Shown here piece by piece: positions 14,729-18,126 of a stretch of DNA of 44,063 nt. Where the stretch lies: NCBI GenBank assembly GCA_013696555.1, contig JACCYJ010000253.1, forward strand, positions 1-44,063, in the 5' to 3' direction. Every line of letters begins with the position of its first letter. The first letter of the stretch is position 1. The notes under the pieces were generated by a model. The model made no database searches. It worked only from the letters and a program-made list of their open reading frames with translations, and was not told the DNA's origin. This stretch comes from Nocardioidaceae bacterium (GTDB taxonomy: Bacteria; Actinomycetota; Actinomycetes; Propionibacteriales; Nocardioidaceae). A program made the translations under genes and the position numbers.

Positions 14729-15655
14729 TCAGCGGTCGAGACGGTAAAGAGCGTCGGTGGCGACGTGACCGAAGCCGAGACGTTGGTAGACCGCGATCGC
14801 CGGTGCGTTGTCGGCTTCGACATACAGAAGTACGCAGCTGAGACCCCGATCGCGCAGGTAGTGCAGGCCGGTCAAGGTCAACAACCGGCCCAATCCGCCG
14901 CCCTGGGCAGCGGGATCGACGCCAACAACGTAGACCTCCCCCATCACCAGGTGCCCATGCTCGCCGTCGACGGTCGTGTCGCCGTGGATCTTGGTCCAGT
15001 GGAATCCGACGAGCTCACCGCTCCGCTCGGCCACGAAGAAACCCTCCGGATCGAACCACGGCTCGGACATCCGCTGGTCCAGATCGTGTCGAGTCATCTG
15101 GCCCTGCTCGGGATGCGAGTGAAATGCCCGGGCGTTCAGCGCCAACCATGCCGTCTCGTCGGCACCGGGCCGGAAGGCGCGGACATGGACGCCCGAAACG
15201 CCTTGCAGCGTTGGCAGTTCGACGGCGAGGTTGCGGCGCAGCTGCCACAGCTCCCGTACGCGTACGAAGTCCAGCGACTCGGCGAGCCGGGCAGCGGCCG
15301 GATCGTCACCGTGCGACCACAGCTGTACGGGACGCGGGGCCGTCAGCTCGAGCGCCGAAATGACCAGCGCGCGACCCCAGCCCTGCCGGCGACATGGCGG
15401 CGCGACCACGGCTTCCGCCTGCACCGGCCCACCCTTGGACACGTCGAGATGGAGGTAGCCCGCCAGCCCGTCGGCGGTGCGTGCCAGCAGATGCTTCGAC
15501 GCGCCGGCCTCGGGGTGGCGCAGGTGCAACAGCGCGTGTTCGTTCAGTGGGGGATGGCCGTCGAAGGCGCCGGCTGCCGCGACCAGCGTTCGGACCGCCC
15601 GGGCATCGGCTAGCTCGAGCGCGTCCAGCCGTTCGATCCGGCGCCGGACCGTCAT
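14729..15655 (-). CDS. mshD: Mycothiol synthase MshD
   Basis: This 308-residue protein has two GNAT domains in tandem. The N-terminal half (about 1-140) has a degenerate acetyl-CoA loop ([10 protein letters not shown]), and the C-terminal half an intact one ([19 protein letters not shown]) with the closing [19 protein letters not shown]. It acetylates Cys-GlcN-Ins with acetyl-CoA, the last step of mycothiol synthesis. The ATG at 15655 overlaps the glnR stop (ATGA), so the two are co-transcribed, as in Rv0818-Rv0819. mshA for the first step is also in this window. Confidence 0.95.
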
Positions 15656-16392
15656 GAGTCGCGGATCGTCGCCGGGTTGTCCACAGATGCTGGGTCGGGC
15701 ACGGGAGCGTGGTTTGCTACGGGGACGACGAAGCGGTAACCCACATTGCGGACCGTGCCGACCAGCGTCTCCCGTTCGGGGCCAAGCTTGGCCCGGAGCC
15801 TGCGGACATGGACATCGACGGTGCGCGTGCCACCGAAGTAGTCGTAGCCCCAGACCTCCTGCAGCAGCTGCTGACGGGTGAAGACCCGACCGGGGTGCTG
15901 CACCAGGAACTTCAGCAGCTCGAACTCCTTGAACGTCAGGTCGAGAGTTCGGCCGTCGAGCCTCGCGGTGTACGAGGCCTCGTCGACGACGACGTCGCCG
16001 GAACGGATCACCTGCGTGTCGGGGTCGTCGGCCCGCTCGCGACGCAGCCGTCCGGCCGCCAGCCGGAGCCTCGCTTCCACCTCGGCCGGTCCGGCAGCGG
16101 TCAGGAGCACGTCGTCGCAACCCCAGTCGGCCCTCACGACCGCAAGCCCACCCTCGGTCACGACCAGCAGTACGGGTACGTCCACGCCGGTGGTCCGGAT
16201 GAGCCGGGTCAGCGCTCGTACCTGGGCAAGGTTGCTGCGACCGTCCACCAGAACCGCGTCACAGCTCGGTGCGTCGAGCAACGTCGAAATAGTGGCCGGA
16301 AGAACGCGGACCGAGTGTGGTAGCACCGCCAGGGCGGGGAGGATCTCGGCGGGCTGTTGAGCTGAGACCGTCAGCAACAGCAGCGACGACAT
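15652..16392 (-). CDS. glnR: GlnR, orphan OmpR-type nitrogen regulator
   Basis: This 246-residue protein has a receiver-like N-terminal domain (about 1-115) and a winged-helix DNA-binding domain (about 140-232) with [20 protein letters not shown] and [18 protein letters not shown]. The receiver keeps Asp50 (LVDGR) but lacks the usual acidic pocket, as in GlnR, which works without a kinase. The match to mycobacterial GlnR as I recall it is close over both domains, including VLLVVTEGG and the [10 protein letters not shown] helix. It controls nitrogen assimilation. The start at 16392 follows a GGGCTGGGGG stretch; TATCTT (minus strand, 16426-16421) could be its -10. It is divergent from the MoaD-like gene. 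Confidence 0.9.
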
Positions 16393-16432
16393 CGTGACCC
16401 CCAGCCCTCGGCCCTGCGCCAAGATAGTCCAC

Positions 16433-16723
16433 ATGCCCACGACGCCGGCGACAACGCCGCCTCCGAATACCGCGACGGTGCGCTATTGGGCGGCTGCCCG
16501 AGCCGCTGCAGGTTGCGATACCGATGCCGTGACACCCGGCAACTTGGCCGAGGTGCTCACCGAGGTGCGGCGGCGCCACGCTGACAATCCGCGGTTTGCT
16601 CGGGTGTTGGACGTCTGTTCGGTGCTCGTCGGTGCGCAGCCGGTTGGCGGACGCGATCACGAGGCAGTCGACGTCGGCGCGGGCGATGTGGTCGAGTTGC
16701 TGCCGCCCTTCGCCGGCGGTTGA
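16433..16723 (+). CDS. MoaD/ThiS-family sulfur carrier protein
   Basis: This 96-residue ubiquitin-like protein ends PPFAGG; the terminal Gly-Gly is the residue pair that becomes a thiocarboxylate. The body has [12 protein letters not shown] and VVELLPPF, typical of MoaD/ThiS carriers. It may serve molybdopterin synthesis, as a molybdopterin oxidoreductase is at the right edge, or another sulfur transfer reaction. It lies beside the sulfurtransferase gene, whose promoter starts 35 bp after its stop. The ATG at 16433 was chosen to keep the gene clear of the divergent glnR start; an ATG-less extension to 16394 is unlikely. Confidence 0.8.
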
Positions 16724-16757: not shown

Positions 16758-16763
16758 TACACT
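16758..16763 (+). promoter_or_regulatory. Probable -10 for leader peptide and sulfurtransferase
   Basis: TACACT stands exactly 6 nt before the GTG of the Cys-containing leader ORF, so its mRNA would begin at the start codon. No clear -35 is seen. Confidence 0.55.
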
Positions 16764-16769
16764 CTTGTC

Positions 16770-16850
16770 GTGGCTCCGTCGACACCGCTCACCCGACGCC
16801 GCGCAGTGGATCACTGCCGCGTGCACTCGGCGCTCTGTCGCCTGCACTGA
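16770..16850 (+). CDS. Cysteine-containing leader peptide upstream of sulfurtransferase
   Basis: This 26-residue ORF translates as VAPSTPLTRRRAVDHCRVHS followed by ALCRLH. It carries the TRRRAVD-x-CRV-x-x-x-LCR pattern of actinobacterial putative leader peptides found before sulfur-metabolism genes. The two Cys codons (TGC, TGT) near the end make it a candidate sensor of charged tRNA-Cys. It starts with GTG 6 nt after a -10 hexamer and has no ribosome site, so it is probably leaderless. The 113 nt to the sulfurtransferase gene includes a hairpin just before that gene's ribosome site. When cysteine is scarce, stalled ribosomes would change folding downstream; that mechanism is inferred. Confidence 0.75.
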   Translation: MAPSTPLTRRRAVDHCRVHSALCRLH

Positions 16851-16927
16851 CCTGCCGGCGCCCCTCTCCTGCCGCTCCCGCGTGAGCCGCTGCGCGCCGT
16901 GTTAGACCCCGCGCCGAACCGTCCACC

Positions 16928-16944
16928 ATCCCCGCGACGGGGAT
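16928..16944 (+). promoter_or_regulatory. Hairpin just upstream of sulfurtransferase RBS
   Basis: ATCCCCG and CGGGGAT form a 7-bp stem with a 3-nt loop, ending 8 nt before GGAGG (16953-16957). It could be the responding element of the cysteine leader. No alternative pairing has been modelled. Confidence 0.45.
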
Positions 16945-16963
16945 CTCGTACTGGAGGTACCAC

Positions 16964-17824
16964 ATGAGCCGCGAATCCGCGCTCGTCACCGCAGACTGGG
17001 TCCAAGAGCATGCCGACGACCCCGGGGTCGTCCTCGTCGAGGTCGACGAGGACACCACCGCCTACGACAAAGGCCATCTCGCCGGCGCCGTGAAGATCGA
17101 CTGGCGACAAGATCTTCAGGACCCGGTGCGCCGTGACTTCATCGACCAGCAGCAGTTCGAGGCGTTGCTGTCTCAGCGTGGCATCGGCAACGACGACACT
17201 GTCGTGCTGTACGGCGGTAACAACAACTGGTTCGCGGCGTACGCGTACTGGTACTTCAAGTTGTACGGCCACTCCGACGTCAGACTGCTCGATGGCGGCC
17301 GCAAGAAGTGGGAGCTGGACAGTCGAGAGCTCACCGACGAGCGGCCCGTGCGCGAGGCGGCCACCTACGTCGCGCAGCAGCCAGACCTCTCCATCCGCGC
17401 CTTCCGTGACGAGGTTGTCGACGCCATCGGCACTCGGTTCCTCGTCGACGTGCGTAGCCCGGACGAGTATGCCGGCCGGCTCCTTGCCCCGGCACACCTT
17501 CCGCAGGAGTCTGCCCAGCGCGGCGGACATATCCCCACAGCAGCGAACGTGCCGTGGAGCAAGGCTGCCAACGATGACGGCACCTTCCGCTCGGACGAGG
17601 AGCTGACGCGCTTGTACGAGGCCGCCGGGCTCGGTCGGGGCACCGATGGGGGCAAGGACACCATCGCCTACTGCCGCATCGGGGAGCGCAGTGCGCACAC
17701 CTGGTTCGTCCTTCACGAGCTGCTCGGCCACGACAACGTCAAGAACTACGACGGTTCGTGGACCGAGTACGGCTCGCTGGTGGGGGTGCCGATCGCCGTT
17801 GGCGACGAGCCGGGCAGCGGCTGA
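16964..17824 (+). CDS. cysA: Thiosulfate sulfurtransferase (two-domain rhodanese)
   Basis: This 286-residue protein has tandem rhodanese domains: an inactive N-terminal one (about 5-125, with YDKGHLAGAVKIDW) and a catalytic C-terminal one (about 145-275) whose loop is YCRIGERSAHTW with Cys237. It transfers a sulfane sulfur from thiosulfate to cyanide or a protein acceptor. The gene symbol follows mycobacterial CysA2/CysA3, which are sulfurtransferases and not the sulfate importer ATPase of the same name. ATG with GGAGG 6 nt upstream. sseC follows after 2 nt, the mycobacterial order. Probably regulated through the Cys leader peptide. Confidence 0.92.
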   Translation: MSRESALVTADWVQEHADDPGVVLVEVDEDTTAYDKGHLAGAVKIDWRQDLQDPVRRDFIDQQQFEALLSQRGIGNDDTVVLYGGNNNWFAAYAYWYFKLYGHSDVRLLDGGRKKWELDSRELTDERPVREAATYVAQQPDLSIRAFRDEVVDAIGTRFLVDVRSPDEYAGRLLAPAHLPQESAQRGGHIPTAANVPWSKAANDDGTFRSDEELTRLYEAAGLGRGTDGGKDTIAYCRIGERSAHTWFVLHELLGHDNVKNYDGSWTEYGSLVGVPIAVGDEPGSG

Positions 17825-17826
17825 GC

Positions 17827-18126
17827 ATGTGCGGCGCGACGCAGGGCGGGCTGACCCTCGACGGCATCGACCTCACGACACAGACGGTCATCCAGGGGGT
17901 GGTCGTCCGGGCAGCGGAATCCCTACCAGGTGCCTACGTGCGCCTTCTCGACTCGGACGGGGAGTTCGTTGCCGAGGTTGCGACGTCGGCGACCGGGCAC
18001 TTCCGTTTCTTCGCCGCGCCGGGCAGCTGGACGTTGCGGACACTGGCCCCCCGCGGCGTGACGGCGGACCGAGCCGTCGTGGCCACCCGGGGTGAGGTCG
18101 CCGAGGTGACCGTCATCCTGGGCTGA
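17827..18126 (+). CDS. sseC: SseC-like DUF1416 protein
   Basis: This 99-residue protein begins MCGA and is predicted all-beta, with GVVVRAAESLPGAYVRLLD and GHFRFFAAPGSWTLRTLAP like a carboxypeptidase-regulatory or transthyretin-type fold. DUF1416 proteins (SseC) sit directly after CysA-type sulfurtransferases in actinobacteria and are presumed partners in sulfur transfer; the Cys at position 2 is conserved as I recall and may receive the sulfur. Two bases separate it from the sulfurtransferase stop. Confidence 0.88.
   Translation: MCGATQGGLTLDGIDLTTQTVIQGVVVRAAESLPGAYVRLLDSDGEFVAEVATSATGHFRFFAAPGSWTLRTLAPRGVTADRAVVATRGEVAEVTVILG

Follow-up and report, generated by a model that had tools for sequence, protein, structure and literature searches.

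Cysteine leader peptides located before cys operons were described in 2005, without a conserved terminator (PMC1262725, available sections). In mycobacteria, the arrangement of such a leader before cysA2 has already been published together with ribosome occupancy (Shell 2015, available sections). The founding example is a leaderless Cys-rich ORF before cysA2/Msmeg_5788, for which attenuation was suggested, and 70S ribosome occupancy was reported on the orthologous leader and the downstream genes (PMC4633059, available sections). Regulation of such genes in M. smegmatis by translation attenuation is cited in PMC13236596 and likewise in PMC9031893, in the sections available of both. The leaders treated in PMC1262725 precede the cys operons of mycobacteria and P. 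acnes as well as cbs of B. longum. They have in common with the leader analysed here a short ORF, Cys codons near the stop and the fact that no terminator hairpin was found; however, they contain runs of Cys codons, and sulfurtransferase loci are not treated in the available sections of that paper. The cysS attenuator uORFC-8-2 of Rhodobacterales (PMC8632094) likewise uses a short upstream ORF that contains Cys codons, whereas these codons are tandem and mostly UGC, an intrinsic terminator is present, and other genes and organisms are concerned.

The leader and its operon in the window

The window is the whole analysed stretch of 44,063 nucleotides from a Nocardioidaceae bacterium (contig JACCYJ010000253.1). 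The leader ORF, which was delimited from the sequence, NCBIfam NF042933 and the related loci, runs on the + strand from GTG at 16770 to TGA at 16848-16850 (16770..16850; 26 codons plus stop, MAPSTPLTRRRAVDHCRVHSALCRLH). The -10 element TACACT (16758..16763, +) is separated from this GTG by the spacer CTTGTC (16764-16769, +) and thus lies 6 nt upstream, predicting a leaderless start. The first Cys codon, TGC (16815..16817, +), is at position +2 from the Asp of RRAVD, where Cys, Gly or Arg is found in relatives, and the second, TGT (16836..16838, +), is at +9 and is the proposed sensor codon. A 7-bp hairpin, ATCCCCG-CGA-CGGGGAT (16928..16944, +), forms part of the interval fold and ends 8 nt before the Shine-Dalgarno sequence GGAGG (16953..16957, +). 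The sequence-only reading had described this 26-codon ORF with two Cys codons, the -10 element 6 nt before its GTG and the hairpin 8 nt before the next ribosome site, all of which are present in the sequence.

The ATG of the downstream gene (16964..17824, +) is 113 nt from the leader stop. Its product is a two-domain rhodanese (Pfam Rhodanese) of the CysA2/CysA3/SseA type of thiosulfate sulfurtransferase, with best PDB matches to 3aax/3aay ('putative thiosulfate sulfurtransferase') and 3hwi at E about 1e-135. A DUF1416 protein gene (17827..18126, +; Pfam DUF1416, E 1e-36) follows and, judging from the spacing, forms an operon with the sulfurtransferase gene; we take its product to be SseC-like. 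On the other side, genes for MshD mycothiol synthase, a GlnR-type regulator and a ThiS/MoaD-like protein (14729-16723) adjoin the leader and provide further thiol and sulfur-carrier context; the ThiS/MoaD-like gene is on the leader's strand, and the genes for the regulator and the mycothiol synthase are on the opposite strand. A second short ORF of 22 codons (16899-16967, GTG at 16899) was also observed, whose TGA overlaps the sulfurtransferase ATG as ATGA. It resembles the 'coupled' ORFs in the available sections of PMC4633059, and the overlap may be incidental because the sulfurtransferase gene begins with ATGAGC.

The best family match of the leader was NCBIfam leader_Ms5788A (NF042933), with an E value of 6.1e-8 and 32.2 bits, below the curated cut-off of 45, in agreement with the earlier statement that the family of putative leader peptides is known. 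The second match, the putative leader peptide cis_reg_atten (NF042934), has the RRAVD...LC core in common with the window leader and scored 20.8 bits (19.3 by genome search), below its cut-off of 27. No Rfam family was found at the gathering threshold, nor at E values up to 10. The Ms5788A family and the window leader are alike in the LT[KR]RRAVDxCR core, in the leaderless spacing (-10 element about 6-8 nt before RTG, read here from the promoter sequence) and in their position before a CysA2-type thiosulfate sulfurtransferase gene. They differ in that the polycysteine tract of the published class is replaced by two Cys at codons +2 and +9, six residues apart. A run of Cys is present in the same LTKRRAVDLCR leader of mycobacterial-type genomes. 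NF042933 matches were present in all 61 genomes sampled from the taxonomic family of the window, of which 0/61 reached the cut-off of 45, and the cut-off was passed in 7/27 genomes of another search. By sequence comparison, the window leader is a below-threshold homologue, as are the matches in those 61 genomes. The sequence-only reading had proposed that this instance ties the family to sulfane-sulfur transfer; that link had already been published, since the founding example precedes cysA2/Msmeg_5788 (PMC4633059, available sections) and the name of the NCBIfam model refers to Ms5788A.

Conservation of the leader, its position and its promoter

One genome per species was scanned around relatives of the sulfurtransferase; more loci existed than the best 80 that were kept. 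Sixteen of the 81 leaders (best 80 loci plus window), the window leader among them, served to construct a profile. In a search with it, a leader was found 5' of the sulfurtransferase gene on the same strand in 80/80 of the best loci, either directly before it or before an extra gene. Such an extra gene between leader and sulfurtransferase was seen in many relatives (DUF4395 at L010:1034-1486; the window has none), and other long-spacing loci contained C-terminal sequences similar to that of the L010 gene. A wider set of 191 leaders from further genomes gave 168 distinct sequences, leaving out L118, L123, L124 and L125, where the motif search gave no leader, and L128, L132 and L141, in which no ATG/GTG start was found.

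A TANNNT element 6-8 nt before the leader start was observed in 81/81 of the best loci plus window and in 168/168 distinct leaders, against a background of 110/9346 at ATG/GTG codons; the leader starts were picked with the -10 element in view, and in 11/81 the nearest in-frame start lacked one and the next start out was used. The number of Cys codons per leader ranged from 1 to 4 in the best 80 loci plus window, the first Cys was replaced by Gly or Arg in some leaders, and leader length and both ends varied among relatives. A chance ORF was ruled out by the NCBIfam match, the presence of the leader in all 80 best loci and the -10 spacing in all 81, and the observation of a leader in the window, present as one clear copy in its genome (genome search), was confirmed as real and beyond chance. 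Homology, the conserved position and the promoter spacing give good support to the earlier claim of a leaderless cysteine leader before the sulfurtransferase operon.

Routes by which a stalled ribosome might act

Taken together, these findings make it probable that the window carries a leaderless leader peptide that senses cysteine and belongs to the actinobacterial kind known first from cysA2, with control of the operon through Cys-tRNA-dependent stalling. Judging from the promoter spacing, transcription would start at or beside the GTG and a 70S ribosome would begin at the 5' end. When Cys-tRNA is plentiful, the ribosome would run through the leader and the sulfurtransferase/DUF1416 operon would be kept low; when it is scarce, the ribosome would stall, most likely at the conserved UGU, and expression would rise, either through a freed Shine-Dalgarno sequence or through blocked Rho-dependent termination. 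The Cys dependence of the window's leader is one that we infer from the mycobacterial relative. The best family match, the conserved position, the -10 spacing, the Cys-run leaders of mycobacterial-type genomes, the published ribosome occupancy and translation attenuation, and amino acids conserved with variable third bases except at UGU speak for a cysteine leader, and the missed cut-offs of both NCBIfam models, the absence of a Cys run and the results on masking, terminator and hairpin given below speak against it.

The first route, translational attenuation by masking, is one we regard as quite possible, though short of probable. According to it, GGAGG is paired with RNA of the leader-to-gene interval (16851..16952, +) until a ribosome that stalls on the leader breaks this pairing. 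Indeed, the interval of the window folded alone places ACC-G-UCC onto GGAGGU, and this mechanism is the one cited for M. smegmatis in the available sections of PMC13236596. Placing a ribosome on the UGU raised the mean Shine-Dalgarno accessibility from 0.318 to 0.366 in the 155/168 leaders with a recognisable next gene, some of whose starts are possibly wrong and one of which (L005) was set by hand. However, shuffled intervals behaved alike (0.298 to 0.332), and the change did not differ between real and shuffled intervals (p 0.29). The folds of the leader transcript (z -0.46) and of the interval (z +1.29) were no better than those of dinucleotide shuffles.

The earlier proposal of a compact attenuator, in which the 7-bp hairpin is followed by the next ribosome site, is not supported as a conserved part of the system: the hairpin was missing from L005, the closest relative found, no terminator was found, and Shine-Dalgarno accessibility did not exceed that of shuffles.

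The second route would be Rho-dependent attenuation, a possibility we hold with some reserve, in which Rho is loaded on the C-rich interval after the ribosome has left the leader, and termination is blocked by a stall at the Cys codon. The interval is C-rich and G-poor, and from the base composition of the loci it is a possible Rho-loading region. Among the 137/168 loci with an interval of at least 60 nt, C exceeded G in 136/137 loci and in 27/27 clusters, and the mean skew was 0.21 in the interval, compared with 0.05 in leaders and 0.08 in gene starts. In addition, no intrinsic terminator of the kind that defines a trp-type attenuator was found between leader and gene, and PMC1262725 (available sections) put Rho forward, as a weak prediction, for the cys operons of mycobacteria. 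However, with few controls at hand, another gene gap in the window had the same skew (0.25), and C-richness may therefore be a general property; moreover, regulation in M. smegmatis is described as translation attenuation in the available sections of PMC13236596.

A programmed frameshift at the UGU was rejected, the frame of the next gene being spread over 59, 55 and 41 of 155 loci. The frame was open to the next start in 91/155 loci for +1 (78.2 expected) and in 45/155 for -1 (76.9 expected). These distributions leave read-through from the leader into the gene unsupported.

Explanations for the fixed UGU codon

Codons were counted from the Asp of RRA[VI]D. Position +9 was Cys in 168/168 distinct leaders and TGT in 165/168, counts that refer to sequences and not to independent events, and the three exceptions were the Cys-run leaders L120-L122. 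The earlier Cys codon at +2, in contrast, was Cys in 153/168 distinct leaders, with TGC in 142 and TGT in 11. A pattern permitting TGC or TGT at +9 gave TGT in 103/103 matches over 296 genomes, and in a sister leader type, RRH[VI]D, TGT was found in 113/114 matches over 197 genomes, both counted from the match rows; the lone TGC among the latter may be a chance match. For this sister type, a -10 element at 5-9 nt was seen in 1/30 loci read, so that the leaderless feature does not extend to it. At L223:1501-3040, an RRH[VI]D-type leader (RRH[VI]D...C with TGT) precedes a nitrite/sulfite reductase gene. In the downstream sulfurtransferase genes of the best 80 loci plus window, TGC made up 98.8% of 85 Cys codons. 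TGT accounted for 5/21 Cys codons in the window's own genes, and the rule is therefore striking for the family, not for the genome of the window. No description of it was found in the passages covered on the rule and on the leader family, a coverage outside which the 2020 M. smegmatis study lies; that study, by Canestrari et al., is reportedly an experimental one of polycysteine ORFs.

At the other conserved codons of the 168 leaders, the first and second bases were fixed and the third bases varied, for example CGG in 55, CGC in 53 and CGA in 34 for the Arg at -4, and GAC in 128 and GAT in 40 for the Asp, which argues for selection on the peptide itself. TGT was followed by C in 154/168 leaders, irrespective of whether the next codon was for Arg, Pro, Leu, Gln or His, and this preference for C points to a nucleotide-level constraint as well. 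Together with the leader, its position and its promoter, the codon constraint is demonstrated at the level of sequence, and it suggests one obligatory UGU sensor codon inside a conserved peptide context.

How this constraint arises can be read in more than one way. Possibly, albeit doubtfully, the RR-x-[VI]-D-x-x-R nascent chain slows the ribosome and makes one obligatory UGU, usually with C as the next base, hypersensitive, the number of Cys codons being irrelevant. The opposite codon choice at the two Cys positions, the persistence of UGU in the sister type, the existence of leaders with one Cys, the fixed first and second bases with variable third bases and the C after UGU independent of the following amino acid would all fit such a sensor. 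Against it, the Cys-run leaders mix UGU and UGC, three of them with UGC at +9, and the rule on the base after UGU is nucleotide-level and could reflect RNA structure.

RNA pairing is an unlikely explanation of the fixed UGU. It would require a long-range helix, P0, between UGUCG and the 5' region of the leader, similar to the protector helix of a trp leader. In the window, the possible strands of P0, placed from sister-clade folds, are CGACA (16780..16784, +) and TGTCG (16836..16840, +), the latter overlapping the TGT codon; the helix would have 5 bp here and was absent from the minimum-energy fold. P0 was found, and was strong, in the consensus folds of Streptomyces-, Streptosporangiaceae- and Nocardioidaceae-type leaders, but was absent from Micromonosporaceae-type and mycobacterial leaders, clade labels being assigned from named loci and resemblance; as a universal cause of the UGU it was therefore rejected, two clades lacking it. 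The leaders' own pairing was better than that with codon-resampled N-termini in 19/28 clusters (p 0.006), and compensatory bases at one base pair, -30/32, occurred in 31/52, a significant excess over the shuffle mean of 20.7 with phylogeny ignored. However, own partners exceeded swapped ones narrowly (17/28 clusters, p 0.047) and resampled C-termini not clearly (15/28, p 0.07), the window leader was no better than the null, 22% of resampled versions being as good, and a covariation test on the tree has too few independent pairs. Furthermore, the sister RRH[VI]D type has no room for P0 and keeps the UGU. In whole-transcript folds, no consistent partner of the U of UGU was found: it was paired in 129 of 155 loci, with a leader base in 73 of them and with a downstream base in 56.

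A separate hairpin within the leader ORF, P1 (GCAGTG / GAT / CACTGC, 16803..16817, +), forms in the leader fold and is found again when leaders are folded to a consensus, both for 39 of Micromonosporaceae type and for 44 of Nocardioidaceae type. At the Ala of RRAVD (16803-16805), 142/168 distinct leaders have GCA or GCG, although the window's genes most often use GCC for Ala; within P1, this Ala position could be the pairing partner of the first Cys codon.

That the ORF encodes a small protein acting in trans is very improbable, for although its amino acids are conserved over the whole class, it lies before the same operon in 80/80 of the best loci, varies in length and at both ends, and carries a single nucleotide-level codon constraint.

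The instance in the window is ordinary: a Nocardioidaceae-like bacterium adds one further case of a sulfurtransferase operon preceded by a cysteine leader. The new part, which is worth following, is the fixed UGU at +9, with the neighbouring Cys codon fixed the opposite way as TGC. A synonymous codon fixed class-wide gives a sharp clue, and one that is cheap to test, about the way in which these attenuators read the cysteine supply, and the rule would give annotators a better criterion than the counting of Cys codons. As a tentative generalization, in which we place less than even confidence, cysteine may be sensed by these leaders throughout the Actinomycetes at only one, codon-specific point, namely an obligatory UGU (wobble-read, and mostly followed by C) within the conserved nascent-chain sequence RR-x-[VI]-D-x-x-R-x4-[LIMVF], the Cys runs being a mycobacterial elaboration. 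The same UGU rule was observed in leaders that precede the sulfurtransferase operon and, in at least one case, a nitrite/sulfite reductase gene; if the single-codon reading is true, a single switch at the level of the ribosome may thus coordinate sulfur genes throughout a bacterial class.
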